A stretch of DNA of 47,394 nucleotides from Bacteroidota bacterium (GTDB taxonomy: Bacteria; Bacteroidota; Bacteroidia; Bacteroidales; F082): the NCBI GenBank assembly GCA_013203805.1, contig JABMPH010000509.1, positions 1-47,394 on the forward strand, in the 5' to 3' direction. A model generated the notes under the pieces. It did not search any database. It was given only the letters and a program-made list of their open reading frames with translations, and was not told the origin of the DNA. Shown here piece by piece: positions 1,799-32,830 of this stretch (the stretch's first letter is position 1; every line of letters starts with the position of its first letter). The translations under genes and the position numbers were made by a program.

Positions 1799-1806
1799 TA
1801 ATAAGG

Positions 1807-1844: not shown

Positions 1845-1891
1845 AACTAATAACAACTGGACAACCTGATATTAACAACAATTCAACAACT

Positions 1892-2347: not shown

Positions 2348-2387
2348 CAAACAACATTAAAAAATAACCCAAATTAACATCACAATA

Positions 2388-3563: not shown

Positions 3564-3576
3564 CACAAATATTAGG

Positions 3577-7582: not shown

Positions 7583-7593
7583 AAAAAACAGAT

Positions 7594-12720: not shown

Positions 12721-14004
12721 ATGAATAAAAAGACAATTCTTATAATAATATTTATTACCTCTACCGCATTAGCTGGTATTTTGCCTACGCAGATTTATTG
12801 GGTTGGAACAGCTTTTAAATTTAAAGAAGAGCAGTTCGACAATAGCGTACGTATGGCACTTAAGAGTGTGATTAATCAATTTCTACAAAACAAAACCGAT
12901 ACTGTTTTTCAGAAGAAACTTATAGCATTATCCTGCCGCAAACAAAAACTTAGCATTGATGATTATATTGATAATCTGATTCTTGACTCGATAGTGAAAA
13001 ACGAACTTAAGTGCATGGAAATTAATACAGTATATCGATATGGAATTTACAGTAAGTACAATAATCGTTTTGTATTAGGAGATTATAAAGACGTTGAACG
13101 AGAATTATTAGATACGCATTATCAATTTTCGTTGGCAAGTATCTATAAACCTGGCGATTATTATTTAAGTATACTTTTTACAAATAAAACACATATACTA
13201 CTACATCGAATGGAGTTATGGGTGTTTTTATCCATTTTGTTTTTATTAATTCTTATTATCAGCTTCATATTCGTTATTTTTACGATCCTTCATCAGAAAA
13301 AAATATCGGAAATTAAAACAGACTTCATCAATAATATGACTCACGAGTTTAAAACTCCAATTGCTACATCATCACTTGCTGCCGAAATGATTCAAAAGGA
13401 GGAGGTTATGGCAAATCGTAATAAGTTGATGAAATATTCATCTATTATACTAGATGAAAATAATCGTTTGCAAAGTCAGGTTGAGCAGGTGTTACAGGTT
13501 GCAATTCTTGAAAGTGGAAAGCACCAGTATAAAATACGAAGATTAAATACCAATGAAATAATCAAAGACGTAGTAAACAGTTTTGAACTTAGAATTAAGG
13601 AGGAGAATATTAAACTTGAACTACAATTGGATGCTACAAACCCATTTTTTATGGGAGATAAAGCTCACATTCTAAATATATACTACAACTTAATTGATAA
13701 TGCTATAAAATACAGTCCAAACAATCCAACTATTTTTGTATATACTTATAATGTTGGTGGCAATATTGTTATTTCTTTTAAGGATAATGGTATCGGTATA
13801 AGTAAGGAATACCAAAACAATGTCTTTAAAAATCTTTTCCGTGTTCCCACTGGCAACATACATGAAGTTCGCGGATTTGGATTGGGATTATATTATGTTA
13901 AAACAATTGTTGATCAATTTGGAGGCAGAATTGAACTTGTTAGCGAATTAGGTGATGGGTCTAATTTTAAATTATTCTTTCCCACAAACCAAACAAAGAA
14001 CTAG
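12721..14004 (+). CDS. Membrane sensor histidine kinase
   Basis: 427 residues. There is one membrane segment near the N-terminus (about 5-25) and a second at about 166-190, enclosing a periplasmic sensor region of roughly 140 residues with no recognised domain. The kinase core follows directly, without an obvious HAMP domain. The H-box is NNMTHEFKTPIA (phospho-acceptor His208), the N-box YYNLIDNAIKYSP, G1 FKDNGIGI, and G2 GFGLGLYYVK. All key residues for autophosphorylation are present. The layout (two TM helices, no PAS, paired OmpR-type regulator) resembles Bacteroides RprX-type kinases. The response regulator begins 4 nt after the stop. The signal is unknown; a Cys-rich secreted protein is encoded divergently. 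Confidence 0.93.
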   Translation: MNKKTILIIIFITSTALAGILPTQIYWVGTAFKFKEEQFDNSVRMALKSVINQFLQNKTDTVFQKKLIALSCRKQKLSIDDYIDNLILDSIVKNELKCMEINTVYRYGIYSKYNNRFVLGDYKDVERELLDTHYQFSLASIYKPGDYYLSILFTNKTHILLHRMELWVFLSILFLLILIISFIFVIFTILHQKKISEIKTDFINNMTHEFKTPIATSSLAAEMIQKEEVMANRNKLMKYSSIILDENNRLQSQVEQVLQVAILESGKHQYKIRRLNTNEIIKDVVNSFELRIKEENIKLELQLDATNPFFMGDKAHILNIYYNLIDNAIKYSPNNPTIFVYTYNVGGNIVISFKDNGIGISKEYQNNVFKNLFRVPTGNIHEVRGFGLGLYYVKTIVDQFGGRIELVSELGDGSNFKLFFPTNQTKN

Positions 14005-14008
14005 AAAT

Positions 14009-14728
14009 ATGAAAGAGGAAAAAAGTGTAATTAGCATTCTATTTGTTGAAGACGATCCTAATCTAAGCATGATATTAAAGGATTATCTTGAAATGATTGG
14101 CTACAATGTTGATCATGCTGAGGATGGCGAAGTTGGAGTTCAGCTTTTTTCTGAGCATGCCTATAACCTGGTTATATTGGATATAATGATGCCAAAAAAG
14201 GATGGTTTTACTGCAGCTAAGGAAATTCGGGAAATGAACCAATTAACTCCAATTATCTTTTTAACAGCAAAAAGCCTGAAAGAGGATCGGATAAAAGGAT
14301 TTGAGCATGGATGCGATGATTATATTACAAAACCATTTAGCACAGAAGAATTAAGCTTACGAATTAAAGCTATTCTAAAACGATGTACCACAAATTATCA
14401 ATTGGCCACCGAGCCTGTTAATGAGACATATATATTGGGCAAATTTGTTTTTGATAGTTCAAATCTATTACTAAAATTTGAAGGAACTGAACGAGTGCTA
14501 ACCAGAAAAGAATCGGGTTTGCTTAAACTTCTATGCATTAATAAAAACAACCTATTGCCTCGTGAAATTGCAATGGAAGCTATTTGGGGAGAAAATGATT
14601 ACTTTATAGGAAGAAGTATGGATGTTTTTATCGCAAAACTTCGCAAGTATTTAAAACCTGATCCCAGCGTCCAAATTAGTAATGTACATGGCATTGGGTT
14701 CAAGCTTCAAGTTAAGAATCCTGAGTAA
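14009..14728 (+). CDS. OmpR/PhoB-family response regulator
   Basis: 239 residues from ATG 14009. The frame is open upstream to 13952, but that would overlap the kinase and add a non-conserved leader. The receiver domain (about 8-125) has the acidic pocket Glu14-Asp15-Asp16, phospho-acceptor Asp58 in VILDIMMP, Thr86 and Lys108 in YITKPF. The C-terminal winged helix (about 140-235) includes LTRKESGLLKLLC and the recognition region RSMDVFIAKLRKYL. It is phosphorylated by the kinase encoded just upstream and should bind direct repeats; the GTTAA array at 12630-12668 is the obvious candidate site, implying autoregulation and control of the divergent Cys-rich protein gene. It ends 2 nt before the convergent DUF4249 gene. 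Confidence 0.95.
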   Translation: MKEEKSVISILFVEDDPNLSMILKDYLEMIGYNVDHAEDGEVGVQLFSEHAYNLVILDIMMPKKDGFTAAKEIREMNQLTPIIFLTAKSLKEDRIKGFEHGCDDYITKPFSTEELSLRIKAILKRCTTNYQLATEPVNETYILGKFVFDSSNLLLKFEGTERVLTRKESGLLKLLCINKNNLLPREIAMEAIWGENDYFIGRSMDVFIAKLRKYLKPDPSVQISNVHGIGFKLQVKNPE

Positions 14729-14730: not shown

Positions 14731-15879
14731 CTATTGTTGCTCAACCCAAAAATCTGGAGGTGTTAGCGAGCCTCCATCCAAACGGCAATCGAAACATGAG
14801 TTTGTAGTACCCATTGCCCATCCGGTAAACATTATATCAACAATATAAATTGGCCATGAGCTTGGTGGCTCGAATCTAATAAACCTCAAATCATAATCTG
14901 GCGTACATTCTTCATAATAAAATGGAATTTTTGGTCTGTCAACATAAATTCGTTTTTTTGTTGATCCCGCAACTATAAAATATCCCAGCACAGGCTCATC
15001 GGCATTGCTTATATTAACTACATTACCTTTAATCTGGATTGGTTGTTTTGAATATAAATTGCCCTGATCGATATTTTGTTGTTCAATGGCACTAAAAAAA
15101 TCATAAGTATTTTTTGATATTGATAACTGGTTCACAGATAAGCTATAGCGAATACTCAAACTTCTGTTATTAGTTGATACAAAGTTCAATGGAAATTGTT
15201 CCACAATGGGTTTATCAAAATATTGGGTTGAAAGTATAAAAATATCATTTATTCTCGATGTAAAATAACAAGTCTGCAAGGAGTCTGGATTTGGATAGGG
15301 AATAAATTCACCTTCAAATGTATAATGTATTCTAAATGATGCTTGATATTTAAAGCAACTGCTCAATTTCCAGAAATAATAACATGTATCATATTGATCA
15401 TTATGATTATCTAAGTAAAACTGTATCCCATAATCAAGTTGGTTACCAATAGTAGTTTCTTGAGATTCCTCTATACCATAAAGGGAATCAATAGGAGAAG
15501 ATTCTAGTAGCTTACTAACCTCAGATCTGTAATTACTTCCGTTTGGTAGTTCAATGTTCAAATAATACGAATTACCTACAATACCCCTAAATGAGCTATC
15601 CAGAATAGTATAAACACCGGGTTCGGTTTCTGAATAAAAGATATCGCCCTGTAGTTCAGTTGCTAGGTATACCGTACCACCAGTAACAGGTATTAGGTCG
15701 GCATTATTTATTGAACTTGAATATGATAACTTTACAACAGAAGGATCACTACCATCAGAAAGAAGTCCATCAACTACCAATACGTTTTCATATTTATCAA
15801 CCTTAGGCCAAAACTTATCCACGCATGAATTAGATATGATAAGTATGTATAATATTGCTATTATGTTTGTGGCTTTCAT
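14731..15879 (-). CDS. DUF4249 lipoprotein, copy 4 (last in the locus)
   Basis: 382 residues. Lipoprotein signal with acceptor Cys19 (ISNSC), then the DUF4249 opening VDKFWPKVDKYENVLVVDG and a beta-rich body. Shared with the other three copies are PIDSLYGI, QFYLDNH, SIRYSL..NQLSIS, a TKKRIYVDRP segment, and the terminal CFDCR..GG...PPDFW motif. DUF4249 proteins are Bacteroidota lipoproteins usually encoded beside TonB-dependent receptors; their biochemical role is not established. This copy is separated from the next gene by 162 bp, the widest gap of the locus, and may have its own promoter, although no TAnnTTTG match stands out there. It converges on the response regulator gene with a 2-nt gap. 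Confidence 0.88.
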   Translation of the reverse strand: MKATNIIAILYILIISNSCVDKFWPKVDKYENVLVVDGLLSDGSDPSVVKLSYSSSINNADLIPVTGGTVYLATELQGDIFYSETEPGVYTILDSSFRGIVGNSYYLNIELPNGSNYRSEVSKLLESSPIDSLYGIEESQETTIGNQLDYGIQFYLDNHNDQYDTCYYFWKLSSCFKYQASFRIHYTFEGEFIPYPNPDSLQTCYFTSRINDIFILSTQYFDKPIVEQFPLNFVSTNNRSLSIRYSLSVNQLSISKNTYDFFSAIEQQNIDQGNLYSKQPIQIKGNVVNISNADEPVLGYFIVAGSTKKRIYVDRPKIPFYYEECTPDYDLRFIRFEPPSSWPIYIVDIMFTGWAMGTTNSCFDCRLDGGSLTPPDFWVEQQ

Positions 15880-16041
15880 ATTATGCTAATTATTTCGTCG
15901 AAAAACATCGGATATGCCATGCTTAATCTTTCTGTACTCTTCGGATTGTAACTTTCGATTCATGCAATTTAATAATGAAAAGTGTTTATCTGCGAAATTA
16001 AGGAAAATAGGTAAGGTGATTTAACATTTCTATATATAGTA

Positions 16042-17190
16042 TTAATCCTCCCAAAAGTCGGGTGGTTCTAAATCACCACCTTCCAGGCGACAGTCGAAAC
16101 ACGACTCCAGCGAACCCATTCCTATTGCACCAGTTTTAGGATCCTGAGTAAGATATATTGGCCAAGTGCTAGGAGGTTCATATTTAATCCATCTCATTGA
16201 AGTATAATCAGGTTCACATATGGGGTAATTGAAAGGTAGTGCTGGACGATCCAAAAAGATGCGTTTTTTTGTTGCACCCGCCACGGTAAAGTATCCCAAA
16301 ACAACCTCTTCAGTATCATTTATATTTTTAACATTTCCCTTTATTTGAAAAGGCTGTTGAGCATATAAGTTACTGAGATTAATATTTTGCTGACGTAATA
16401 TATCCCAAAAATAATATGCAGCTTCTGATAATGTAAGCTGGCTTACCAACAAACTATAACGAATACTTAACTCCTTCCCATCTGTTGAAACATATACTAA
16501 TGGAAATTTATTAATTATTGGTTTTTGGAGATATTTGGTTGTGTAGGTAAATATTTCCTGAATTTGAGAAGTACGCCAACAAGTTCTAAACGTATCTGGC
16601 ACCGGATATGGATAAAAATCTCCTTCCCAAGTATAATCAATATCAAAGGATGATTGGTACTCATATGTATTACTTAATCTCCACAAATAATAGTTTGTGT
16701 CCGCTTCATTAGCATGATTATTAAGGTAAAACTGAATTCCGTTCTGAGGTAAATACCTATTTGGAATTTCACGTGTTTCTTTAATCCAAAATAAAGAATC
16801 GATGGGTACAGGCTCAAGCAAAGTACATATTTCAGACATGTAATTACTACCCCCTGGCAATTCTACAAAGAGTTGGTATGAATTACCTTCAACACCTTGA
16901 AACGACTTATCTTCCGGAATATAAACTCCGGGCTCTGATTCAATAAATGAAAATTCAACTTGATTGCCATCAGTAATATAAACATTTCCATTAGATAATG
17001 GGTTTAATCGACCTTGATTAACTGAACTTGAATATGATAAGCTAACTTTTGTCTGCTCTTTAATATTGGTCAATAACGCATCCACAACTAAAACATTATT
17101 ATATTCATCTACCTTGGGCCAATACTTCTCAACGCATGAATTAGTCATTAATAATACACTTACTACTACAATTACAATTTTGAATTTCAT
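16042..17190 (-). CDS. DUF4249 lipoprotein, copy 3
   Basis: 382 residues from ATG 17190. The frame extends four codons further to a GTG at 17202, but the ATG gives a compact lipoprotein signal ending in LLMTNSC. Domain content is as in the other copies, with the terminal CFDCRLEGG and PPDFW motif. It is closest to copy 1 (20706-21848): both have ETRE(I/V)PNRYLPQ around one third of the length, both read EPDY.SM.WI near the end, and both have a YTWEGDF/YTWEGEF segment. That suggests these two arose from a more recent duplication than copies 2 and 4. It lies 64 nt downstream of copy 2 on the same strand. Confidence 0.88.
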   Translation of the reverse strand: MKFKIVIVVVSVLLMTNSCVEKYWPKVDEYNNVLVVDALLTNIKEQTKVSLSYSSSVNQGRLNPLSNGNVYITDGNQVEFSFIESEPGVYIPEDKSFQGVEGNSYQLFVELPGGSNYMSEICTLLEPVPIDSLFWIKETREIPNRYLPQNGIQFYLNNHANEADTNYYLWRLSNTYEYQSSFDIDYTWEGDFYPYPVPDTFRTCWRTSQIQEIFTYTTKYLQKPIINKFPLVYVSTDGKELSIRYSLLVSQLTLSEAAYYFWDILRQQNINLSNLYAQQPFQIKGNVKNINDTEEVVLGYFTVAGATKKRIFLDRPALPFNYPICEPDYTSMRWIKYEPPSTWPIYLTQDPKTGAIGMGSLESCFDCRLEGGDLEPPDFWED

Positions 17191-17254
17191 TGATTTTAAC
17201 ACTATTAGGCTAAATTAACATGATTAGCTATTCTTATCTCATTTTATGCATAAA

Positions 17255-18415
17255 TTATTTCTCTGTTAGCCGTTTTTCCCAAAAATCAGGAGGAGTTATA
17301 GATCCTCCCCCTATACGACAATCAAAGCAGAATTCCATGGTAGCTCCAGCCAGATCTTTATCTGGAATCAGCGTTAGATAGATTGGCCAAGACTCAGGAG
17401 GTTCAAAGCGTATAACACCCATTATTTCAAGGTCGGGTTCACATTCCTCATAATAAAAAGGCACGATAGATGGTCGGTTAACAAATATTCGCTTTTTTGT
17501 AACACTGGCAACGGTAAAATATCCTAAAACAAACTCCTCAAAATTTAAGATATTGTGGACATTACCAACTATCTGGTTAGGCTGCTGAGAATAAAGGTTG
17601 CCCTGATCAATATTTTGCTGTTGTAGAGCATCCCAAAATCCAAAGGCCTCTTTAGTAATTGATAATTGGTTAACTAGCAAACTATATCTTATACTTAACA
17701 TTTTATTTTTTGTGGAGGTGAAGTTTAAAGGAAACCCATTAATTATTGGAGGTTTAAGATATAAGGTAGAATATGTAAAAAAATTAGTGATTTGTTGTGT
17801 ACGCCAACATCTTCGCAAAGAATCTGGATCTGGATAGGGAATTAATTCACCTTCCCATGTAAAATGAATATTAAAAGTTGTTTTATACTCATAAGTTTGT
17901 GATAAGCGCCACAAATAATACCTTGTAGAATCTGAATCGCTATGATTGTCCAAATAAAACTGATAACCATATTTATCTTTCTTATTCTCGACATATTGCT
18001 TTGTTTCTAATATTGCATATACTGAATCAATAGGTGATGGGGGCATCATTAAACAACTATTTGATTCATATTTCTTTCCTGAGACTAACTGAATATATAG
18101 ACGATACGAACTCCCAACTTTTCCACAGTATGTGCTATCCATTATCTGATAAACCCCGGCCCTTGTCTCACTCAGTAATATAGTTGTAGCATTATCTTCT
18201 GTTATATATACTTCGGCATCCATAACTGGTAACAGTTCATCGCTGTTAATTGAGTTTGAAAATGATAATTTAACAATTACAGGATCGTCTCCATCCGTTA
18301 AGGTTCCATCAACAACAAGAAGATTTTCATAACTATCAATATTTGGCCAATACCTGTCTACACAAGATGATAGGCTTATGACTACTAAAAATATTGATGT
18401 GATATTCTTCATCAT
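17255..18415 (-). CDS. DUF4249 lipoprotein, copy 2
   Basis: 386 residues, lipoprotein signal ending SLSSC (Cys18), then VDRYWPNIDSYENLLVVDG. It carries the same beta-rich DUF4249 body, FTWEGELIPYPDPDS, a TKKRIFVNRP segment and the terminal CFDCRIGGG plus PPDFW. In place of the ETREVPNRYLPQ stretch of copies 1 and 3 it has a charged ETKQYVENKKDKYGY segment, so the variable region lies just before QFYLDNH. It starts 18 nt after the MG2-like gene's stop, implying cotranscription and perhaps translational coupling. Divergence among the four copies suggests different ligands for a shared partner; that is inference. Confidence 0.88.
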   Translation of the reverse strand: MMKNITSIFLVVISLSSCVDRYWPNIDSYENLLVVDGTLTDGDDPVIVKLSFSNSINSDELLPVMDAEVYITEDNATTILLSETRAGVYQIMDSTYCGKVGSSYRLYIQLVSGKKYESNSCLMMPPSPIDSVYAILETKQYVENKKDKYGYQFYLDNHSDSDSTRYYLWRLSQTYEYKTTFNIHFTWEGELIPYPDPDSLRRCWRTQQITNFFTYSTLYLKPPIINGFPLNFTSTKNKMLSIRYSLLVNQLSITKEAFGFWDALQQQNIDQGNLYSQQPNQIVGNVHNILNFEEFVLGYFTVASVTKKRIFVNRPSIVPFYYEECEPDLEIMGVIRFEPPESWPIYLTLIPDKDLAGATMEFCFDCRIGGGSITPPDFWEKRLTEK

Positions 18416-18433
18416 CCTAACAACAAACTAATA

Positions 18434-20695
18434 TTACTTTACAATTAGTTTTTTATTGACAAGTATTTTATTGTTATTCAGGCTTATAATTTTAAGATCA
18501 TAATCACCAATACTGGATGGGGCTACAAGTGGAATTTTTGCTTTTGTGCTCTTGGCTACAAATGTTTTCCAGTAGATTGTATTCGCAAAATCAGGTTTAC
18601 CTGAATTATTAACTTCCGATGAAAATGGTATAAATTCAACGTTATTCTCCAAACCCCGGTACTCTACAAATACACCATTATCTGAAAGTGGTAATCCTGC
18701 AAAATTCCCAGTATTTGTTGTTATGGATATAATACCATTAAACTGCTCATTGCCGTACATATACTTATGAGGAGCAACCTCAATAAGTTCAATTTCGGTA
18801 GGTTGAAGTTCCATTAATTCATCAATATTATAATAAGGCACCTGATCAACAAATAATAACGGGTTGTCGTATTTAATAAATAATTGATCATCCAATACTA
18901 TTAGGCTGTAGTGCCCATCTTTTTTTCTTGCTCTTACAGATGGTACAATTTCATTTATTACTTCCGGTACAGATGATAACTGAACATAGTCTGTAAGCAG
19001 TATACTATGTAAATTATCTCCAAAAATCAACCTGCTTTTTTTAATATTTTCTTGGATTTGAAGTCTTTCAACACCATATAATATATTGATTTGGTGATTT
19101 ATATACATCTGAGTTATTAGCTCTTTTTGGGAGGTGTCAGGTAGAAAAGGAGTTGAGACCCAAATAGGCAACTCCTTACAGAATCCATTGTCAATAAGTA
19201 TTTCGACATCGCTTGTTCCGTTAATTAAATCTGTTCCAAGATAGATATCGTAAAGCCCTGTTATATCATTTAGTGGAACGACAAATCTGCCATTATTTAA
19301 GGTACGGGCAGTATGAAATTGTGGCTTATTACCCAGAAAAGAGCAAAAAACTAATTCATTCGAAATTGATTCACCACTTGTTGAGTTTATTACTTGACCC
19401 TGCAAGGTTAATCCAACTAATTCAGGAACCACAAACTCTTTGTTGACTATAGAGTTCTTCATTCTATTGAAAATGTTGTTTCCGTTAAGAGCTAATACTA
19501 TTTCTAGCTGATGAATAATATTTTCATCCAGATAATATGAATCAAAATAACTTTCAAAATATTGTGGATTGTTTAAAAGATAATCAGGTAGTAAATTTGG
19601 AGATTGAGATATTGTGCCACTTAGTGCAACTGAAACACCGATTGGGTAATCACTACTTTCAATATCTGATAGATCAATACTAAAATCACCTCCAGATTCT
19701 ATTGTATTTACAGCAGAATTTGCATGTTTGCTTACTTGATTTAATACTATGCTGTGTATCGAACTATGAATGATATTTTCTTCACTATCAGTTATGGCAA
19801 GTAAAAACAAATCTGAATCCAACATTGATATTGGAATATTTACCCTTGCAGTATCTCCTATCATATTTACTCTGCTTCTAAATAACTCATTTCCCGAAAC
19901 ATTTAACACTGAAAAGTGTAATTCCTGCTCAATGAGATTGTTACCCGAGATGGTAAAAACAATTTCATCCGCTATTCGTTCTTTTGTTAGCTTTCCAATC
20001 TGTATTTTAGGAGAAATAATTTTGCTGCTAATGGTATCGCCTGAATTAAGCTTTATGAGTAATTGCAGTTCGTCATTTGATTGTATTTCATAGTCAAAAC
20101 TGCCAATACCATTTTTGAAATAGTCAACATGATAATTTGTAAATAAACCATTAACAATCAATTCTACACTATCTACTTCTTTAATAATTGGCCCTTTCAA
20201 TCTAAAAGCCGTATTTCCATTTGGCATTACATTAATTGAAATTTGCTCATCTTCACCAGGCATTGCACTTGCAGATAAAGGATGAGTTGGGTTTACCACT
20301 GATAATATTTCAGTTGCCATTTGATAAACAGGAAAATTCTCTTGATATCGTGTATATGCTCGTAGTAAGTAATAACCGGTAGCAGATTGTTCAGGTATTA
20401 ATATTTTTCCTTCGGCCAATCCATTATAAATACTAACTTTTTGAGAAGCAACAACTTTTAAGTCATTGTCAAATAATTCAATATAGAGTACTTTGCTTAA
20501 ATCAGTAGGGTTATCATCTGCCAATGAATAAGATACAGTATACCAAATTGGCTCACCCGACACATAGAATTCTCTATCGGTAACTAGTTGAACTTGTTCT
20601 ACATTTTTGAATTTCGTTATTTGCGATTTTAAATTTACCGGTAAAATCGAAAGAAAGACAAAAGCTAACAGTAGATATTTATATTTTGATGACAT
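18434..20695 (-). CDS. Large periplasmic/surface protein with MG2-like N-terminus and barrel-less plug-like end
   Basis: 753 residues with a signal peptide (1-25). The N-terminal part (about 30-140), VQLVTDREFYVSGEPIWYTV then GYYLLRAYTRYQEN, resembles the MG2 (macroglobulin) domain of bacterial alpha-2-macroglobulin-like proteins. A carboxypeptidase-regulatory-like strand region follows near 410-480 (LTLQGQVINSTSGESIS). Near residues 613-662, LLFVDQVPYYNIDELMEL, EIELIEVAPHKYMYG and NGIISITTNTG read like the end of a TonB receptor plug domain, but only about 90 residues follow, so there is no barrel. No thioester motif is seen. It lies between DUF4249 copies 1 and 2, with gaps of 10 and 18 nt, so it belongs to this transport locus. 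Function unknown. Confidence 0.75.
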   Translation of the reverse strand: MSSKYKYLLLAFVFLSILPVNLKSQITKFKNVEQVQLVTDREFYVSGEPIWYTVSYSLADDNPTDLSKVLYIELFDNDLKVVASQKVSIYNGLAEGKILIPEQSATGYYLLRAYTRYQENFPVYQMATEILSVVNPTHPLSASAMPGEDEQISINVMPNGNTAFRLKGPIIKEVDSVELIVNGLFTNYHVDYFKNGIGSFDYEIQSNDELQLLIKLNSGDTISSKIISPKIQIGKLTKERIADEIVFTISGNNLIEQELHFSVLNVSGNELFRSRVNMIGDTARVNIPISMLDSDLFLLAITDSEENIIHSSIHSIVLNQVSKHANSAVNTIESGGDFSIDLSDIESSDYPIGVSVALSGTISQSPNLLPDYLLNNPQYFESYFDSYYLDENIIHQLEIVLALNGNNIFNRMKNSIVNKEFVVPELVGLTLQGQVINSTSGESISNELVFCSFLGNKPQFHTARTLNNGRFVVPLNDITGLYDIYLGTDLINGTSDVEILIDNGFCKELPIWVSTPFLPDTSQKELITQMYINHQINILYGVERLQIQENIKKSRLIFGDNLHSILLTDYVQLSSVPEVINEIVPSVRARKKDGHYSLIVLDDQLFIKYDNPLLFVDQVPYYNIDELMELQPTEIELIEVAPHKYMYGNEQFNGIISITTNTGNFAGLPLSDNGVFVEYRGLENNVEFIPFSSEVNNSGKPDFANTIYWKTFVAKSTKAKIPLVAPSSIGDYDLKIISLNNNKILVNKKLIVK

Positions 20696-20705
20696 AGTTA
20701 AGTTA

Positions 20706-21848
20706 TTAATTTTCCCAAAAATCTGGTGGCCTTAATGAGCCCCCCTCAAGTTGGCAATCAAAGCATTCATATAAAGTTGCCATACCAAGTGCTCCGCTAT
20801 TTGACATTGTAAGATATATTGGCCAATACTCTGGTGGTTCAAACTGAATCCATCCCATCGAACCATAATCAGGTTCACAAATCATATAGTAAAATGGCAA
20901 AGCAGGACGATTGACATAAATCCGTTTTTTTGTTACACCAGCTACTGTAAAGTACCCAAGTACTGTTTCTTCTGCGTTTTCAATATTTTTAATATTGCCC
21001 CTTAACTGAAAAGGTTGTCTTGAATGTAAGTTCTCCATATCAACATTTTGCTGACGCATGGCATCCCAAAAATCAAACGCCTCTTTTGATATTGATAATT
21101 GACTTACTAACAAACTATAACGAATACTCAACTCTTTTGTGTCGGTTGAACAAAAGTTTAAAGGAAACCTATCTATAAGTGGGCTGGCAAGGTTTTTTGT
21201 AGTAAAAGTAAATATTTCCTGCACTTGAGAATCATGCCAGCAAGTCCTCATGGAGTCGGGTACCGGGAAAGGTTTAAACTCGCCTTCCCATGTATAATCG
21301 ATATCAAAAGAAGACTGATATTTATATGTTTGATTTAATCTCCACATATAGTAGCAAGTGTCTGAATTATCACTGTGATTGTCCAAGTAAAATTGAACTA
21401 TTTGTTGTGGCAGATATCGGTTAGGTACCTCACGAGTTTCCTGGACACCATAAACCGAATCAATTGGTGAAGGAGCATTTAACCAACAGATTTCAGATTC
21501 ATATTTATTACCATTTGGTAACTCAACAAAAAGTTGATATGAATTTCCAATCTGCCCTTGAAATGATTGGTCTTCTGAGAGATATACACCTGGTTCAGTT
21601 TCAGTAAAAGTGAGAGTTAATTGGTTATTATCAACTACATATACGATACCGTCCGATATGGGAATAAATACGCCTTCGTTAATTGAACTGGAGTATGATA
21701 AATTTACCGTAGCAGGATCATTTGAATTTGAAAGAAATCCATCAACAACTAACACATGATTATATCTGTCAACCTGTGGCCAGTACTTCTCTACACAAGA
21801 TGTAATTGACAATAAGAACAAGATCGATATTACGGCTCTAATCGTCAT
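20706..21848 (-). CDS. DUF4249 lipoprotein, copy 1 (overlaps the receptor gene)
   Basis: 380 residues from ATG 21848. The frame continues to 21917, but the longer form would overlap the receptor gene by 80 nt and bury the lipoprotein signal. With the chosen start, MTIRAVISILFLLSITSC is a clean signal and the overlap with the receptor stop is 11 nt, typical of translational coupling. The body has VEKYWPQVDRYNHVLVVDG, ETREVPNRYLPQ, YTWEGEFKPFPVPDS, TKKRIYVNRP and the terminal CFDCQLEGG with PPDFW. It is the first DUF4249 copy after the receptor and therefore the best candidate for its direct partner lipoprotein. Confidence 0.9.
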   Translation of the reverse strand: MTIRAVISILFLLSITSCVEKYWPQVDRYNHVLVVDGFLSNSNDPATVNLSYSSSINEGVFIPISDGIVYVVDNNQLTLTFTETEPGVYLSEDQSFQGQIGNSYQLFVELPNGNKYESEICWLNAPSPIDSVYGVQETREVPNRYLPQQIVQFYLDNHSDNSDTCYYMWRLNQTYKYQSSFDIDYTWEGEFKPFPVPDSMRTCWHDSQVQEIFTFTTKNLASPLIDRFPLNFCSTDTKELSIRYSLLVSQLSISKEAFDFWDAMRQQNVDMENLHSRQPFQLRGNIKNIENAEETVLGYFTVAGVTKKRIYVNRPALPFYYMICEPDYGSMGWIQFEPPEYWPIYLTMSNSGALGMATLYECFDCQLEGGSLRPPDFWEN

Positions 21849-24627
21849 AATTACCAAGTTTAAAATCGTAAGTAATGGAAAAAATTTGCGTGCCAAAAAT
21901 TGACATTTTATAACCATTAACTACACCATTCTCCGATTTGAAGTATACAGAATATGCATTTTTTCTGCCGGTTAGATTATAAACTGAGAAGATAAATACA
22001 CCATGAGCTAATTTCTTCGAAACTAAGTTTCCTTCAAGTTTAACAGCCAGGTCTATTCTAAAATAATCAGGTATTCGATATTCGTTACGTTTACTATAAT
22101 GAAGAACTTTTTCACCATCCAGATAATAAATAGCTGCCGGATAAGTTATAGGCCTGCCTCTAGAGTAAATAATATTGCCCGAAAATATTAATCGACGTGA
22201 TGCTTTAAAGTTAGCTACCAAATTAAATGTATGTGGATGATCGAAATTTGAGGGATAGCGTTGTCCGAAATTAATGTTCTCCCCGGTTACATTGTTGTTA
22301 ACAATAACTGATGAATGCGCATAGCTATAATTAACCCAACCATTTAATCTTCCAAAGGGCTTTTTAACCATAAACTCAAGTCCATATGCATCAAGATCCC
22401 CCTGAAGTACATCCCACTCAACAACTTTACTTGTCACCAAATCGGCTCCATCCTTATATTCTACCAAATTATATGCTTTCTTATAATATCCTTCGACAGA
22501 GCCCTCGAAATTTTTACCAAAATTTACATAGTATCCCAACGAAAACTGATCGCCAACCATGGGTTTAATATGATAATCGGCCAATTTCCATTTATCAGAA
22601 GGTGATAAAGCAATTGTATTTGTTAACATGAAGATATATTGATGAAGACGATTATATGCCGCCTTTATCGACATATTTGGGTTTAATAAGAAATTTACAG
22701 AAAACCTATAATCCAGACCTCCATATGTTTTAATGGGCTGATTATCGCTAAAATGCAGAGTATCAGTAATTGTTGTGGGCGACATTGGTGCATTTGGCAA
22801 ATAATTGTATACTGATTGAGGCCCCAGATAAGTATATAAGTTATACCTCAGGCCACCCAATAAAGTTATTAATGGAGATATTTTCCATTCATCACTAATG
22901 AAAATAGCTGATTCAAGAGCCTTTTCACTACCAAAATTGATGGGCACAACGCCCGATTGATCATTCAGCGGTAAATGTGAGCCCCTGTCAAGCATATAAA
23001 GTATCCCGGAAACACCTGTATTAATAGTATGCTTTTCGAAGGGTTGCAAATTCAAATCAACATTAAACTGATTATGCCTTAGCCTATAGTTTTGTTTGTA
23101 AGCTGCAAATGATAATTCCGAATTCTCCTCTTCAAACTCATAATCAGAATATACAAAGGATATATTAAGGTCGTGTTTATTCTTAAATCCATGAAGCCAA
23201 CTTACCGAGGCTCCCTGATTTTTAAATTGATACGCGGTACTATTGGCCAGCTTTATTCTGTCTTCGCTATAATACCCAAAAAGTTTAATCTTATTACTCT
23301 CGTTAAGATTGACGTCGAAACCCAGTACAGCATCCCCGAAATATGCTTTTGAGTCGCGTATCTCAGGATCCTTTACCATTTTAAGTACCCAATCAGAATA
23401 TGTGGATCGTATTCCGGCAATGTAGCTAATCTTATTTTTTACTATTGGTCCTTCGGCCATAAGTCGTGCCGTAATCGGACTTATTCCACCCCGGGCAGAG
23501 AATTTTTCCATACTACCCGTCTTAGTACTTATATCGAAAATAGAACTTAGGCGGCCACCAAATTTCGCAGGTATACTTCCTTTGTAAAGAGTAAAATTAT
23601 CGATAATATCAGGGTTAAAAGCCGAAAAGAAACCAAATAGATGAGAAGTATTATAAACAGGAGCATTCTCAACATAAAACAAGTTTTGGTCGGCTGGGCT
23701 ACCACGAACATTAAAACCTGATGCTCCTTCGCCAACGCTGGTTACTCCGGGCAGGAGAAGTGCAATCTTTATTACATCCTTTTCGCCCAATATCACAGGA
23801 ATTTCATTTATTGTTTTGGCAGACAGTTTATCAAAACCCATTTGAGTACTGCGAACATTATGCTCCTGTGCTGATCTAATCTCAACTTCTTGTAAGACAT
23901 ACAAGTTTTGATCGAGGGTTAGATTTAGTTCACCTGACGACTGTATATCAATTTTAACATTCCGCTCAATACTTTCAAGACTATTAAATACAAGAGTGTA
24001 TTTGCCAGGTACCAAATTTAACTGATAGTAACCATTTTCATCAGTGGCTGTACCTGTTTCAAGTTCATCAACATAAATAGTACCACCTATAATCGGTCCA
24101 CTATTACCGCTACCGAAAACATAACCTGACAGTATACTCTTTCGCTTTTGCGGATTTAGCTTTCTACTTCCAACTATTATGGTTTTTGCTACATAAACTG
24201 AACTTGTAACTAAGTTTCCATCGCGAGCCTTCTGATCACGACTCTGCTGATTTAGATCAGAGATTTTTAATTGTTCGGTAAAAAAGCCAATGGGGAGTTG
24301 TGTTTTTAAGGATACCCCTTTTGTAATGAAAAAGGAATTATTATTATCGGACGCAACATTATAACCAATATCGTCAAGACTCTGTTTGAGCACATCTTCA
24401 ATGGTTAATGAATCTGACTCAACTTTGACTCTAAACTCGGGAATTGTATCTGTTTGAATATAATATTTAGCATAAAAGTTTTTTTCAGTCTCATTTTTAA
24501 AATCTAACCAAGTATAGTTATTAAGCTTTACCGGCACGAAATTATTTTTATCCTGACCTAGCAAATTAATAGAAATTAGCTGACCTAATATAAGAATGAA
24601 GTATATGATGAATTTATTATTTTTCAT
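21838..24627 (-). CDS. TonB-dependent receptor with STN-like and carboxypeptidase-regulatory domains
   Basis: 929 residues: signal peptide (1-25, ending LLGQ), STN-like short domain (about 55-105, with ESDSLTIEDVLKQSLDDIGY), linker, carboxypeptidase-regulatory domain (about 165-248, SGYVFGSGNSGPIIGGTIYV), plug (about 275-370, with GFNVRGSPADQNLFYVENAP and IDNFTLYKGSIPAKFGGRLS) and a barrel. It is not SusC-like in length or linker, and its neighbours are DUF4249 proteins rather than SusD. STN domains often signal to an anti-sigma factor, but no sigma/anti-sigma pair is in the window. The start overlaps the stop of the preceding gene by 4 nt (ATGA type). The imported ligand is unknown. Confidence 0.92.
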   Translation of the reverse strand: MKNNKFIIYFILILGQLISINLLGQDKNNFVPVKLNNYTWLDFKNETEKNFYAKYYIQTDTIPEFRVKVESDSLTIEDVLKQSLDDIGYNVASDNNNSFFITKGVSLKTQLPIGFFTEQLKISDLNQQSRDQKARDGNLVTSSVYVAKTIIVGSRKLNPQKRKSILSGYVFGSGNSGPIIGGTIYVDELETGTATDENGYYQLNLVPGKYTLVFNSLESIERNVKIDIQSSGELNLTLDQNLYVLQEVEIRSAQEHNVRSTQMGFDKLSAKTINEIPVILGEKDVIKIALLLPGVTSVGEGASGFNVRGSPADQNLFYVENAPVYNTSHLFGFFSAFNPDIIDNFTLYKGSIPAKFGGRLSSIFDISTKTGSMEKFSARGGISPITARLMAEGPIVKNKISYIAGIRSTYSDWVLKMVKDPEIRDSKAYFGDAVLGFDVNLNESNKIKLFGYYSEDRIKLANSTAYQFKNQGASVSWLHGFKNKHDLNISFVYSDYEFEEENSELSFAAYKQNYRLRHNQFNVDLNLQPFEKHTINTGVSGILYMLDRGSHLPLNDQSGVVPINFGSEKALESAIFISDEWKISPLITLLGGLRYNLYTYLGPQSVYNYLPNAPMSPTTITDTLHFSDNQPIKTYGGLDYRFSVNFLLNPNMSIKAAYNRLHQYIFMLTNTIALSPSDKWKLADYHIKPMVGDQFSLGYYVNFGKNFEGSVEGYYKKAYNLVEYKDGADLVTSKVVEWDVLQGDLDAYGLEFMVKKPFGRLNGWVNYSYAHSSVIVNNNVTGENINFGQRYPSNFDHPHTFNLVANFKASRRLIFSGNIIYSRGRPITYPAAIYYLDGEKVLHYSKRNEYRIPDYFRIDLAVKLEGNLVSKKLAHGVFIFSVYNLTGRKNAYSVYFKSENGVVNGYKMSIFGTQIFSITYDFKLGNYDD

Positions 24628-25370
24628 TGCCTTTTGTTATGCCTTTCATTAATAAACTCCATAAGGAGTGATAATTGAGTTGCTGATGCTTTTGCAAATT
24701 TGATTTTGTTCTTACGTAGAAATGTGGATACATCTTTACGCATACTAGGGAAAAGGTTTAAAAACGTTTTTTTTGAATTTATTTGAATCAACGATCCTTC
24801 ATACAAAACAAATATTGATCGCTTGGTGCTACCATATTTTCCAAAAGGGTTTATATTATTATACCTATTAATAAAATCTTTGCTATACCCAATATACATA
24901 CTATAATATCCATTATTAATGGAGTGCAAATACGAGTAATTACTTTGTAAGCCAATTTTATCAGGATTAACAAATAGTTGTTTTGAGAACATAAATGAAT
25001 CAATTAGCACATCACTTAATGAGATAATTCGTCTTGCATCATTTGAAGTAGTAATTAGCAACAATAATTTTTGAGTACTTACATCATAATTGAGAATTGA
25101 ATTCTTAAACTCCGTTTCACCAGTATAAACGCTGCCATCTATAAACTCTGCGTCAAATAAAAAGGGAGAACCGTTTGCTTCACTTTTTGGCTGAAAATAA
25201 AGTGGCCCGTTGACGAGTAAATCACTTGACCCATATATTTTCTTAGTTGAATCGATTATATATTGAAGAGAAGATTCATGTGAGTTCTGTGAATTCATGA
25301 GTAATGGACATAGTAATATGCTAAGGAATAAAAGATTATAAATTGGATTATGGAAACTATTAACTTTCAT
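24624..25370 (-). CDS. Secreted protein at the head of the DUF4249/receptor operon
   Basis: 248 residues from ATG 25370; two codons upstream there is a TTG that extends the frame to 25376, but ATG is preferred. It has a signal peptide (to about residue 28, ending LLMNSQ) and a predicted beta-rich body (LLVNGPLYFQPKSEANGSPF, FIDGSVYTGETEF, QKLLLLITTS). A basic C-terminus (FLRKNKIKFAKASATQLSLL) follows. I do not recognise a named family. It overlaps the receptor gene by 4 nt and is the first gene of the 11-kb minus-strand series, so it is part of the transport system. The role is unknown; an accessory periplasmic protein is plausible. Confidence 0.7.
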   Translation of the reverse strand: MKVNSFHNPIYNLLFLSILLCPLLMNSQNSHESSLQYIIDSTKKIYGSSDLLVNGPLYFQPKSEANGSPFLFDAEFIDGSVYTGETEFKNSILNYDVSTQKLLLLITTSNDARRIISLSDVLIDSFMFSKQLFVNPDKIGLQSNYSYLHSINNGYYSMYIGYSKDFINRYNNINPFGKYGSTKRSIFVLYEGSLIQINSKKTFLNLFPSMRKDVSTFLRKNKIKFAKASATQLSLLMEFINERHNKRQ

Positions 25371-25443: not shown

Positions 25444-25451
25444 CAAATTTA
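25444..25451 (-). promoter_or_regulatory. Putative -7 element of the DUF4249/receptor operon
   Basis: The minus-strand octamer is TAAATTTG, matching TAnnTTTG, 73 nt upstream of the ATG at 25370. The 263-bp region up to the divergent kinase gene holds no other gene. Confidence 0.45.
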
Positions 25452-25633: not shown

Positions 25634-26716
25634 ATGATCAAGTTAACGAATAGTAAATCTTTGTTTGATCCAAATATGGCAACATTACCCATCCTTATTG
25701 CAGAATGGGATGACAGCCCTATGGATGCTCTTATAACATATCAGAACAATATTCTGAGAAACGAAATCGGGTCATGGGTAGATAAATCTTTATTAGAATT
25801 ATTCGATAAACTATCAGGTGGGAGCGGTAAAATGGTTTTAAAAAAGTTAGTTAATGAAGGTGTATTGGCTTTGCCGTGTAAAATTGATAAGATGGAAGTT
25901 AAGGTTCATTCCCGTCTTGGACCTAAGCATATTCAGATTACAATAACTGATAACACAGAAATAAATCGCCTTCGCGATATTGGACAGAGATCAAAATTAA
26001 TTGACACCTTTTTAATGATAGGATCCCACGAATTAAAAACTCCTTTAAATGGAATTATCGGTATATCATCTTTGTTAAAAGAGGAGGAAGATGACTATTC
26101 TAAAAGTGAAATGCTTGATCTGATTATTAACAGTGGTCAGGGATTGAACGATGTGGTTATTAAAATGTTAAACCAAATATATTCATCTAAATCCAATAGT
26201 ATAGTCAATGCAATTGTAAATCAAAATGTCGGAGATTCAATTATGAAAAGTCTGCCTATGTTTAACAAATATCTACAAGACAGAGACTTTAATATTGAAA
26301 ATCTTCATTTGAATGATAAGTTATTTATACAGTTACCTGAAGGCAATCTAACGGATATTCTTACCGAAATTGCCATAAACCTCAGACGTAATACACCACC
26401 AAACGGAAAAGTTACATTTTCTACCTATGATGAAAAAGGTGAAGTTATCCTAATTGTTGAAAACGAAGGATTTGGGATTCCTGAGACAGATATTAAAAGA
26501 GTGTTTGAACCATTTTACCGGCATCAGGACAAGATGTATCATTCAAGCGGTTACGAGTATCAACAGGCAGGAGCTGGAATGGGATTAACCATACTAAAAA
26601 GAAATGTTGAGAATGCCGGAGGCAGGGTATGGTTTGAAAATAGTTATCCGTATGAACAAGGAAAGCAAAATAGAGTGAAATTATATATCATATTACCAGG
26701 GCATAATCCACATTAG
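25634..26716 (+). CDS. Orphan soluble histidine kinase
   Basis: 360 residues with no membrane segment or signal peptide. The N-terminal 100-120 residues look like a PAS-type sensor domain ending in ITITDNTEINRLRDIGQ. The HisKA domain (about 125-190) has the H-box SHELKTPLNGIIG. The ATPase domain has an N-box-like INLRRNTPPNGK, G1 VENEGFGIP (Asn where Asp is more usual, also seen in other active kinases), F-box FEPFYRH and G2 GAGMGLTILKR. No response regulator is adjacent. It is divergent from the DUF4249 operon (promoter region shared) and convergent with the Crp/Fnr gene, overlapping its 3' end by 4 nt. Control of the DUF4249 operon is possible but unsupported. Confidence 0.85.
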   Translation: MIKLTNSKSLFDPNMATLPILIAEWDDSPMDALITYQNNILRNEIGSWVDKSLLELFDKLSGGSGKMVLKKLVNEGVLALPCKIDKMEVKVHSRLGPKHIQITITDNTEINRLRDIGQRSKLIDTFLMIGSHELKTPLNGIIGISSLLKEEEDDYSKSEMLDLIINSGQGLNDVVIKMLNQIYSSKSNSIVNAIVNQNVGDSIMKSLPMFNKYLQDRDFNIENLHLNDKLFIQLPEGNLTDILTEIAINLRRNTPPNGKVTFSTYDEKGEVILIVENEGFGIPETDIKRVFEPFYRHQDKMYHSSGYEYQQAGAGMGLTILKRNVENAGGRVWFENSYPYEQGKQNRVKLYIILPGHNPH

Positions 26717-27440: not shown

Positions 27441-29114
27441 CTATTTACTTACTACAACTTTGCCTCTGTACATATTTTTATTATCAGTTTTTAATTCATA
27501 GAAATAAATACCAGAGCTTAAATTTCCTAATTCAATAATATATTTAGTACTCCCTGATTCCAGATAATTCTGAAGAACAGGATTTCCATTTATATCAAAT
27601 AGATTAAAAATACCGCTGCTTTCGAGTTTTGATAATAAGCTTATATTAACAGCGTTTTTACATGGATTAGGGTAAATTGTTGCCGCTAATTTGCAGTATG
27701 TGTAATTTACACCCAAAAGATTGCTAATTGCATATTCCATCTGGACATCAATCCCCTGTTCCCATTGTTTTTTAATATTGTCAACATTGTTAGGCACTTT
27801 GATATCAGGCATAAGTCCTCCTACAAGGTTGGAGTCGGAATCAAGTTGAATAATATGGTTTTCATTGAGTGACATTGCCTGCGGAAACATAATTTGGAGA
27901 CCTGCCGGCATTAAAACAGGATCATAATCAACCATTCCAAATGAACCATTTGTCCCCCAGTGCGATACTATAGTTGCATTCTCCAACCTTTGGAACATCA
28001 TGGCAAACCCTTCCCCGGTACTGATGCAGTTCGGATCGACAATAATGGCAATTTCACCATCGAACAACGGTGTCAAAGGCTCAGTCCACAATTCATAAAT
28101 AACATGATAATCATAATCGTAGGAAGCTGTTATATATTCATAAAATGATGGCTGGTTATAAAATAACCCCATTGTAACTGCTGCCTGAAGATCGTTCCCT
28201 CCCATATTAAACCTGAGATCTACAATAAGTTTATCTACATTATTTTCATTAAAATATGTAACAGCGTCCTTTACTTTGATGAAATCCGGATCCTGCATCA
28301 TTTCTTCAGGAGTTTCGGCTTCTGCCGACTCAGCCCCGATAAAAAGGTAACCAATATTGTTTTCAATAATTTTATATTGTACTAATGAGTCGAAATCCAG
28401 TGGCTTGCCAGTGTTTAATAATCCCGTTAAATATAGTTCCAGTTCGTCTTCAAAAGCAACAAGTGTAATTGTACTTTCCTCCTTTGAATTGTTATTTTGA
28501 TAGGAAATTGTTGCGATTGCCCCTACTGAATCCCTGCTAAGCATCAGATACCTGCTAAATATCCTGCCTTCGGTTGTGGAATAGTTCCTGGGATAATTAA
28601 GAAGCTCAATATATCCAACAGAATCGATGTGAATGCCATTCCATTTCAGAATTTTGTCACCGGTACGAATACCTGCTTCATAAGCCGGACTTTCTTGTGG
28701 AATGTATGAAACCACAACTGATCCATCATCCAACTGAATCATGTTAAAACCGTAGCTGCCATTAATATAACGACTTCTGAATTTATCGAGATTACCTGAA
28801 ATCGAAATATGTCCGTCTGGAACATTATATAAATATTCCAACAGCTCCTTCACGAACAAAACGGTATCATTGGCATTTTGAGATTCAATAATTAGCGGCC
28901 TTGTTTTTGAGTTTTTTGAATCCCAGTCAATGGCTTTCCATTGAGTATAAGGATATCTCACCTCAAGTGTTGCATGCATCGAATCGTATGCATCAATCCA
29001 TGACAAAGAGCTGAAATCAAATTGTGATCTGCTATCAAGTGGTTGATGTTTTTCTAACTGCCCGAAAAGTTGTACTGAAATTACAAGAAATAGAATGAGT
29101 ACTAATTTTTTCAT
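27441..29114 (-). CDS. S41-family protease with T9SS C-terminal sorting domain
   Basis: 557 residues: signal peptide (1-19), N-terminal S41 part with the GH element VPDGHISIS (His102), PDZ-like domain (about 120-195, ESPAYEAGIRTGDKILKWNG), catalytic core with nucleophile Ser365 in CISTGEGFAMMF, then a type A T9SS sorting domain over the last 80 or so residues (YPNPCKNAVNIS to GIYFYELKTD and KVVVSK). The Lys that forms the Ser/Lys dyad in CtpA-type proteases is not seen at its place (the GKG segment reads GSFG), so the tricorn-like Ser/His arrangement is more likely. It is exported by T9SS to the cell surface or medium. It lies 49 nt downstream of a serine hydrolase gene in the same series. 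Confidence 0.9.
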   Translation of the reverse strand: MKKLVLILFLVISVQLFGQLEKHQPLDSRSQFDFSSLSWIDAYDSMHATLEVRYPYTQWKAIDWDSKNSKTRPLIIESQNANDTVLFVKELLEYLYNVPDGHISISGNLDKFRSRYINGSYGFNMIQLDDGSVVVSYIPQESPAYEAGIRTGDKILKWNGIHIDSVGYIELLNYPRNYSTTEGRIFSRYLMLSRDSVGAIATISYQNNNSKEESTITLVAFEDELELYLTGLLNTGKPLDFDSLVQYKIIENNIGYLFIGAESAEAETPEEMMQDPDFIKVKDAVTYFNENNVDKLIVDLRFNMGGNDLQAAVTMGLFYNQPSFYEYITASYDYDYHVIYELWTEPLTPLFDGEIAIIVDPNCISTGEGFAMMFQRLENATIVSHWGTNGSFGMVDYDPVLMPAGLQIMFPQAMSLNENHIIQLDSDSNLVGGLMPDIKVPNNVDNIKKQWEQGIDVQMEYAISNLLGVNYTYCKLAATIYPNPCKNAVNISLLSKLESSGIFNLFDINGNPVLQNYLESGSTKYIIELGNLSSGIYFYELKTDNKNMYRGKVVVSK

Positions 29115-29163: not shown

Positions 29164-30276
29164 TTAGAAATCAGGATAAATAAGTTCTGGAATTAACTTC
29201 GCTAATACGATTGGGTTAGCACTGTCTAACTCACCATTATACCATACTATAATGGTGCATTTTCTCTCAGGAGAATTAATCATCAGAGATCTATATCCGG
29301 GACATTCACCATTATGACCATAGAATCCTTTGTACCCTAAAATTCCTTCACCATAGCCAAAACCTCCATCTATTTCGGGACAGACTAGTCGCTCTTGCTG
29401 GGTTGCCGGTTGGAGGAACTCACCTCCTGTCAGAGCTTCTACATACTTTTTCAAATCAGCAATATTTGATGTCATACAGCCTGCGGCCCCAGCCCATGAA
29501 GTATCCAAATATTCTGATAATTCGGGAAAGCTGGGATCATAATCTCCACCATAGTAAGCACTCGAATGAAAGCCCGGAATGCTGGTACCTCCAACAAGGT
29601 ATGTGGTATTGTATAAGTTAAGCGAGTTCAAAATTCTGGTATTAATATTCATTTCAAGCGTTTTACCAGTTAACATTTCTATTATTTTCCCAACAATAAT
29701 TGTATTGGTATTGGAATAATGATAGCCAGTTCCTGGATTAAAATAATATGGTTTGTCCCTGGCAAGAGATATTAATTCGTCGGTTGTCCAGAATTTCGTA
29801 GGGTTGGAAAACAATCCTTCCCAAAACCCATCTATTTCGTCAAAACCAAAAATCCCGCTTCGCATATTGGTCAGCATTTTAATGGTGACCTCATTTGCCC
29901 TTGGAAAATCAGCAAGATAATCTGACAGTGGATCATCAAGAGAAATGAGCCCTTCATCTACCAATTGAAGCAATACTGTAATTGTAAAGGTTTTTGTATT
30001 ACTTGCAATTCTAAAGATCATATCAGCATCCATGGGAGCATTTGTTTCAATATTTGATACTCCGGCAGCATATACAAAATCGATTCCTTCATTAGGTGCC
30101 CAGATGCCGGCAACCAATCCCGGGACATGGGTGTTTGCAATGATTGAATCCAGTACCTCCTGGATTTTGCTTTCTGTAATTTTAGCCTGGCTGGGATCGT
30201 CATTCTTTTTACAAGAAGTCATGAGGACACTAATCAGGACAAGACTGATTAATAAGAATGTGTTAATTTTTTTCAT
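29164..30276 (-). CDS. Serine hydrolase lipoprotein, class C beta-lactamase/DD-peptidase fold (third of three)
   Basis: 370 residues. Lipobox LMTSC (Cys22), followed by KKNDD. The active-site motifs are SxxK as Ser92-Asn-Thr-Lys95 (FRIASNTKTF), YxN as Tyr187-Ser-Asn189 (YHYSNTNT), and the third motif as HNG in YGHNGECPGYRS near the C-terminus. This fold covers class C beta-lactamases, D-alanyl-D-alanine carboxypeptidases, D-aminopeptidases and esterases; HNG instead of KTG argues against a classical beta-lactamase. It is the shortest of the three paralogues here and lacks their insertion between SxxK and YxN. Cys-Lys-Lys plus acidic residues resembles the surface lipoprotein export signal of Bacteroidota. 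Confidence 0.9.
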   Translation of the reverse strand: MKKINTFLLISLVLISVLMTSCKKNDDPSQAKITESKIQEVLDSIIANTHVPGLVAGIWAPNEGIDFVYAAGVSNIETNAPMDADMIFRIASNTKTFTITVLLQLVDEGLISLDDPLSDYLADFPRANEVTIKMLTNMRSGIFGFDEIDGFWEGLFSNPTKFWTTDELISLARDKPYYFNPGTGYHYSNTNTIIVGKIIEMLTGKTLEMNINTRILNSLNLYNTTYLVGGTSIPGFHSSAYYGGDYDPSFPELSEYLDTSWAGAAGCMTSNIADLKKYVEALTGGEFLQPATQQERLVCPEIDGGFGYGEGILGYKGFYGHNGECPGYRSLMINSPERKCTIIVWYNGELDSANPIVLAKLIPELIYPDF

Positions 30277-30354
30277 TTGAATTCAATTTAGCTTTAATTT
30301 ATCAAAAATCGTAATCACTTTGAACCGTTTTTAAGCAGATTAAATGTTCAATTA

Positions 30355-31584: not shown

Positions 31585-31602
31585 GGCTGTATTTTTTAAT
31601 AG

Positions 31603-32784: not shown

Positions 32785-32830
32785 TTTATCTTATTTACTA
32801 GTTATACTTATTTCATCATTAAGTGATCAA

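Follow-up and report, generated by a model that had tools for sequence, protein, structure and literature searches.

A widespread Bacteroidota outer-membrane uptake cassette varies in its number of DUF4249 genes and carries four of them in a Bacteroidales F082 genome

Seven closely spaced minus-strand genes on contig JABMPH010000509.1 of a Bacteroidota bacterium (GCA_013203805.1, Bacteroidales F082) encode, from position 25370 down to 14731 of the 47,394-nucleotide (nt) stretch analysed here (the window), a protein termed SEC, a TonB-dependent receptor, a first DUF4249 protein (D1), an MG2 protein and three further DUF4249 proteins (D2, D3 and D4). This locus is an expanded version of an outer-membrane uptake cassette that is widespread in Bacteroidota. 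The gene order SEC - receptor - DUF4249 - MG2 recurs across the phylum, and it is mainly the DUF4249 part of the cassette that varies in number. The best reading of these data, to which we give a probability of a little under one half (about 0.48), is that several exchangeable DUF4249 lids serve a single receptor.

Results

The cassette in the window

SEC (24624..25370; 248 amino acids (aa) from its ATG, 250 aa from an upstream TTG) is the first gene of the cassette and overlaps the receptor gene (21838..24627; 929 aa) by 4 nt (24624-24627); the receptor gene is in turn overlapped by 11 nt by D1 (20706..21848). Gaps of 10, 18, 64 and 162 nt then separate D1 from the MG2 gene (18434..20695; 753 aa), the MG2 gene from D2 (17255..18415), D2 from D3 (16042..17190) and D3 from D4 (14731..15879). 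These figures use the nearest in-frame ATG starts, the open reading frame (ORF) lister having longer upstream starts for SEC, D1 and D3, and with them the overlaps and gaps given in an initial annotation of the window were reproduced. The gene content described there, consisting of one non-SusC receptor, four DUF4249 lipoproteins, an MG2-like protein and SEC, was likewise borne out.

The receptor is predicted to be TonB-dependent, with a plug followed by an outer-membrane barrel; its CarbopepD_reg_2, Plug (30.9 bits against 23.9) and TonB_dep_Rec_b-barrel (64.4 bits against 27) domains all score over the curated cut-offs. It matches neither of the SusC/RagA models TIGR04056 and TIGR04057, nor any other NCBIfam model at E 0.1. 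The other receptor of the window (4289-7582), serving as a control, matches TIGR04056 at 8.6e-183, and the non-SusC label was thus well chosen. This second receptor and a SusD-like_2 protein together occupy 4289-9036 and offer a built-in contrast to the DUF4249 cassette. Among 39 aligned receptor members an N-terminal extension was recognised as STN in 11 and as FecR_C in four (E<=0.01), the window's own receptor having neither.

Recurrence across Bacteroidota

Loci for comparison came from receptor relatives in the same taxonomic family, from the surroundings of DUF4249 matches found at order, class and phylum level, and from receptor relatives in named genomes. The named-genome set (set B) holds the best 80 of 591 confirmed stretches and covers Flavobacterium, Mucilaginibacter, Hymenobacter, Dyadobacter, Rufibacter, Allomuricauda, many Bacteroidales assemblies and others; set A includes near relatives of the window. 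Gene order was read with profiles made from the window genes and their hits. After removal of repeated receptors, 196 receptor hits remained, and 113 of these have an MG2 gene in the chain behind them. SEC lies directly upstream of the receptor in 101 of the 113 MG2-containing modules. Four of the 12 modules without an upstream SEC have at least 900 nt of upstream sequence (L116, L139, one L144 module and L213), and in L116 SEC is located after MG2. The recurrence of both genes makes SEC and the MG2 protein, initially annotated as two accessory proteins, better described as regular cassette members. A second, shorter system also exists, in which the receptors, most of them 770-810 aa long and a few close to 900 aa, are each paired with a DUF4249 protein of ~290 aa and no MG2 gene is present; the window's own genome has one such system, on contig C198.

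The initial annotation held that DUF4249 genes often neighbour TonB receptors, and that they might prove to lie mostly away from them was its own counter-case. The former is what we find. Among 71 above-cut-off DUF4249 matches in 31 genomes (four further matches below the cut-off being set aside), a same-strand receptor lies within 7 kb in 61 and none does in seven, among them L101 and L126 at the end of a contig. Our analysis profile re-found 68 of the 71, those in L102, L117 and L132 being the exceptions. In a phylum-wide sample, 270 of 392 Bacteroidota genomes have a DUF4249 match; scoring was mostly limited to six candidates per genome, so that gene numbers from this sample are lower bounds.

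Copy number per cassette

Copies were counted as intact DUF4249 genes (at least 320 aa) per cassette, where the MG2 gene is present and at least 1300 nt of sequence extend beyond the chain. Three of 82 receptor-selected cassettes have no such gene, 56 have one, 13 have two, six have three, two have four and two have five. One DUF4249 gene per receptor is the common state (56/82) and four or five form the upper tail (4/82), so that the single receptor with four copies noted in the initial annotation is real but rare. Four copies are found in the window and in a Mucilaginibacter metagenome-assembled genome (L196), and five in L065 and in Allomuricauda ochracea (L207). In two loci, L168 and L176, the receptor and MG2 genes are directly joined, with no DUF4249 gene between them. 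The short receptor-DUF4249 pairs have one copy in 30 of 30 cases, and the difference from the cassettes in carrying at least two copies has a Fisher p of 4e-4, uncorrected for relatedness.

These counts were kept separate from loci fetched for their tandem genes (L133-L146), where 13 complete cassettes comprise three with one copy, eight with two and two with four, and from the short loci in L141, L142 and L143, L079 (MG2 gene 1983 nt away), modules with less than 1300 nt beyond the chain and repeated receptors. The window is not alone in having copies beyond MG2: L047, L068, L186, L187, L213 and L224 show the same placement, those of L186 being fragments of 121 and 217 aa.

Family, motifs and predicted structure of the DUF4249 proteins

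All four window copies belong to Pfam DUF4249 (PF14054), with scores of 127.4-140.5 bits against a curated cut-off of 28.5 (E 9.7e-38, 1e-36, 2e-39 and 1e-40). Their pairwise identity is 50-63%, with synonymous change between copies saturated or near-saturated; this identity, together with distinct counterparts in relatives, excludes both chance ORFs and a single repeat carried unchanged as explanations for the four. Each copy has an N-terminal cysteine after a hydrophobic stretch, and each carries the CFDC...PPDFW ending whose motifs the initial annotation had picked out as common to all four. A rule-defined lipobox cysteine is present in 175 of 184 different long DUF4249 proteins, including the four of the window, and eight of the nine misses were viewed by eye, with a plausible cysteine in those eight. 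In the broader form CxDC...PxFW, the ending is found in 159 of 172 DUF4249 ORFs of at least 360 aa but in only 2 of 52 ORFs of 250-330 aa (duplicates included). It marks the long cassette form and separates long from short DUF4249 proteins. That every window copy keeps this long-form ending fits the idea that all four dock on one type of partner.

A model of D1 (m19157e6d4ec8; predicted local distance difference test (pLDDT) 86.1, predicted template modelling score (pTM) 0.77), folded from the 403-aa ORF of which the first 23 residues are probably not translated, is made up mostly of beta strands and consists of two beta-sandwich domains and a C-terminal extension. Foldseek returned 18 matches at E<=0.001, among arrestins, cytokine receptors and antibody and biofilm proteins, with TM-scores by query of 0.10-0.19, and the best VIA match was the sandwich domain of factor XIII (Z 8.4, 111 residues, 3.6 Å). 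To judge from the model, these are common sandwich arrangements of unrelated proteins, and we claim no relationship. The SusD fold is helical. For this one modelled copy SusD was not among the 50 matches viewed of either structural list, which by itself does not exclude it. No SusD-like Pfam model matched D1-D4, DUF4249 being the only hit at E 0.1, and the window's own SusD-like protein, as positive control, matched SusD-like_2 at 1.2e-108. Given the lack of a SusD model match and the two beta-sandwiches of D1, the term 'SusD-analogous' used in the initial annotation is tenable in a functional sense only, and not as membership of the SusD family. Neither DUF4249 nor SEC nor the receptor drew a credible match in sequence searches against the PDB.

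Gain and loss of copies

In a maximum-likelihood tree of 83 DUF4249 proteins of at least 330 aa and three shorter ones, same-operon copies are nearest relatives in 13 loci (L052, L057, L065 with all five copies, L069, L133, L134, L135, L137, L138, L142, L145, L146 and the two-copy L140 module), which indicates that expansion happened many times. The copies do not form one group in L047, L048, L051, L053, L136, L139 and the window. The window's four copies fall within a group of 12 limited to members of the window's genus (support 98/92), where D1, D3 and D4 each pair with a gene of the relative G001, D3 and D4 also with a gene of G003, and D2 with a gene of G004 (95/98). The DUF4249 gene in the first slot of G003, adjoining the receptor, pairs with D3 and not with D1 (100/100), a pattern suggesting either that slots are not fixed or that copies were lost differently. 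G001, the nearest relative, is without D2. The 94 nt that separate its MG2 and D3 genes can be aligned with the MG2-D2 gap of the window continued into the beginning of D2 (score 106 versus at most 50 in 200 shuffles). By this alignment G001 keeps a 5' remnant of a lost D2 copy.

Selection and patchwork divergence

Between the window and G001, the ratio of non-synonymous to synonymous change (dN/dS) is 0.07 and 0.01 for the two pieces of the receptor, 0.22 for D1, 0.18 for D3, 0.15 for D4, 0.20 for SEC and 0.26 for MG2, the values for D1 and D3 being computed with the longer ORF starts. D4 is the least G001-like of the three copies compared (87%). Protein identity between the window and G003 is 85% for the receptor, 75% for D3, 73% for D4, 60% for SEC and 49% for MG2. 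The receptor is the steadiest part of the cassette; D1, D3 and D4 are under purifying selection, yet change faster than the receptor. Divergence of the copies combined with purifying selection on these three favours kept roles over mere dosage.

Divergence is also uneven along the gene. Codons 61-150 of D4 share 39 of 90 residues with G003, against 226 of 272 in the rest (from codon 19). This patch was picked post hoc, and at synonymous sites it shows no significant difference from the rest (20/39 identical versus 141/219 outside, p 0.15), so that fast change and exchange might each account for it. A clearer patchwork appears in the two neighbouring DUF4249 genes at 6189-8550 of L196, whose nucleotide identity per 30 codons starts at 86-88% in codons 1-120, falls to 50-61% in the 120 codons that follow and lies at 37-70% thereafter, with 80% at the very end. 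In 55 of 131 pairs sharing 55-85% identity, the 60-residue stretch of lowest conservation begins somewhere in residues 30-119, and in another 36 it begins no earlier than residue 300.

The MG2 protein and SEC

The MG2 domain of the window's MG2 protein is below its Pfam cut-off (24.7 versus 32.8 bits); it is matched at E<=0.1 in 28 of 30 aligned operon members, the window's included, and an A2M domain was found in one of the 30 (E 0.065). Weak hits of the MG2 profile on SusC plugs in the PDB (E 0.077, 0.15 and 0.87) led to a profile-profile comparison with the receptor, in which MG2-protein residues 423-687 align in order with receptor residues 158-401, that is, with its carboxypeptidase-like and plug domains (E 2.7e-5, probability 74%). 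Pfam Plug is found in two of 30 members (best E 0.099), and no barrel was seen in the MG2 protein. It would thus carry an MG2 domain followed by a barrel-less carboxypeptidase-regulatory-like and plug-like stretch at about residues 423-687.

SEC was aligned with 29 relatives and matches no Pfam or NCBIfam family at E 0.1. It is presumed to be secreted from its signal-like N-terminus. Its model (pLDDT 88) has no Foldseek match at E<=0.001 and a best VIA Z of 3.7, which is not proof of a new fold. Comparisons of SEC with the receptor, of SEC with the MG2 protein and of DUF4249 with the MG2 protein gave no similarity of note.

Candidate promoters and neighbouring genes

The Bacteroidota -7 box is TAnnTTTG. 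TAAATTTG (25444..25451, minus strand), an exact fit to it within a block upstream of SEC that is conserved in G001, is a candidate operon promoter. A non-coding block before D4 (15990..16041, minus strand) is identical in G001 at 49 of 52 nt, the G001 sequence having one extra base; over the remainder of the 162-nt D3-D4 gap, 73 of 106 aligned nt agree. The block holds TAATTTCG, one base off the same box, and D4 may have its own internal promoter in this block.

The operon is flanked by two histidine kinases, one with a response regulator (12721-14728) converging on its end and one (25634-26716) diverging from its start. Elsewhere in the window, a minus-strand row of three PF00144 (serine beta-lactamase-fold) proteins and one AAT-family acyltransferase spans 29164-34054, with an S41 peptidase bearing a type IX secretion tail beside it (27441-29114), and at 275-3996 an aromatic amino acid lyase precedes three ORFs to which Pfam assigns no family at E 0.001.

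Discussion

We are able to propose a mechanism for the cassette. The single TonB-dependent receptor would be the channel, and the DUF4249 proteins, anchored via their lipidated N-terminal cysteine, would cap the outside of the barrel or capture ligand there, comparable in function to SusD, BtuG or XusB but with a different fold. The four copies, arising from within-operon duplication, would compete for, or alternate on, the same receptor, and a somewhat different binding surface on each would broaden or shift the range of ligands open to that receptor. SEC and the MG2 protein would regularly assist the receptor complex, possibly when it is assembled or gated. It is from the precedents of BT2172/BT2173, BtuG, XusB and the utilisomes, taken together with the present data, that we infer a lid role for DUF4249 with several lids per receptor; surface exposure, lid binding, exchangeability, ligand differences and the helper roles are parts of this same proposal. 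A more elaborate form seems to us improbable. In it, lids undergo duplication, loss and patchwise alteration within the operon, the slowly evolving receptor can work with whichever of them is at hand, and the MG2 protein, with its barrel-less receptor-like stretch, has a part in swapping or resetting the lid.

Other accounts of the extra copies have to be weighed. One copy might be the lid and the others extra surface binding proteins that gather ligand, as surface glycan-binding proteins do in a utilisome, with several DUF4249 proteins held at once. This is a serious if doubtful alternative: utilisomes in which a transporter has extra lipoproteins exist, as the available text of PMC7618045 describes, and in the window MG2 stands between the receptor gene and three of the copies. 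However, the long-form ending is kept in all four copies and slot order differs between relatives, and together the shared ending and the changing slots count against one fixed lid plus helpers.

The faster change of the DUF4249 and MG2 proteins relative to the receptor could also mean that the copies are surface proteins under phage, predator or bacteriocin pressure, the exposed surface changing while transport stays constant. The patchy divergence of D4, the patchwork of the L196 pair and the loss of D2 in G001 fit such a store of diversity. We nevertheless think it quite unlikely: dN/dS is well below 1 in D1, D3 and D4, the D4 patch carries the reservations given above, and none of the 25 longest among 75 inverted-repeat pairs is perfect or resembles a promoter switch. 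Extra copies that simply raise the amount of lid, or are passing towards loss, are a further and distinctly unlikely explanation. Young duplicates in the family member L069 (branches 0.044 and 0.039), the fragmentary or split copies in L186 and L221 and the D2 remnant in G001 all speak for it, but the divergence of the window copies, with synonymous change at or near saturation, and the purifying selection on D1, D3 and D4 with their G001 counterparts count against dosage.

Several results weigh against exchangeable lids. No intact DUF4249 gene is present in 3 of the 82 cassettes, L168 and L176 having none and L221 a split gene. The short locus L142, from the tandem-picked set, has two copies, and amplification is therefore not strictly confined to cassettes; together with the differential-loss option for the first slot of G003, this weakens the proposal slightly. 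The dN/dS values cover D1, D3 and D4, D2 being without a close counterpart. A conserved docking face in the tail is not supported by mean identity over 30 in-operon pairs, at 0.60 for the first domain, 0.58 for the second and 0.54 for the tail. Finally, no neighbour recurring in a fixed place was found among 530 flanking ORFs (at least 130 aa, within 4.5 kb), and consequently no ligand is suggested. The largest flanking group, by eye resembling signalling kinases or regulators, occurs in 19 loci on both sides and both strands, and 13 other groups seen in at least four loci each cover 4-7.

If several lids do serve one receptor, ligand range would depend on the number of lids and not only on the number of receptors, and receptor counts would understate the uptake capacity of bacteria. 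Operons with one to five DUF4249 genes form a natural series for testing this. The companion proteins are concrete new targets, SEC having no assigned family and the MG2 protein a plug-like stretch minus the barrel.

DUF4249 is hardly written about: in the literature we searched, the name occurs in a single paper. We met no description there of the four-gene cassette or of a variable lid number; preprints were outside the search, and that of Price et al. may hold one. The partnership of DUF4249 with a receptor is not new, being already in print (PMC11003636). As set out there, BT2172 and BT2173 of Bacteroides thetaiotaomicron are a TonB-dependent transporter and its DUF4249 partner in one conserved operon, with joint action proposed, and disruption of either is said to have similar consequences (PMC11003636, citing the Price et al. 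preprint). The partner role advanced in the initial annotation has a precedent in this proposal. As in that pair, receptor and DUF4249 protein share an operon in the window; unlike it, where this text names one DUF4249 partner, the window has four.

Further known systems resemble the proposed arrangement in part. Like the SusC/SusD pair and the utilisomes, complexes with more than one lipoprotein per transporter in the passages available from PMC7618045, it would combine a barrel with a lipoprotein lid and could accommodate extra lipoproteins. It differs from SusC/SusD in that the DUF4249 proteins have no SusD model match and the receptor no SusC/RagA call. Other parallels are small-molecule transporters in which a non-SusD lipoprotein stands beside a TonB-dependent transporter, although for DUF4249 the lid role is our proposal. 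BtuG is such a lid; the abstract of PMC10404256 names it as the single lid of each BtuB and also mentions a set of further lipoproteins that bind B12. XusB is the lipoprotein lid of XusA (PMC13142918). It is a DUF4374 beta-propeller, unlike the two beta-sandwiches modelled for D1.

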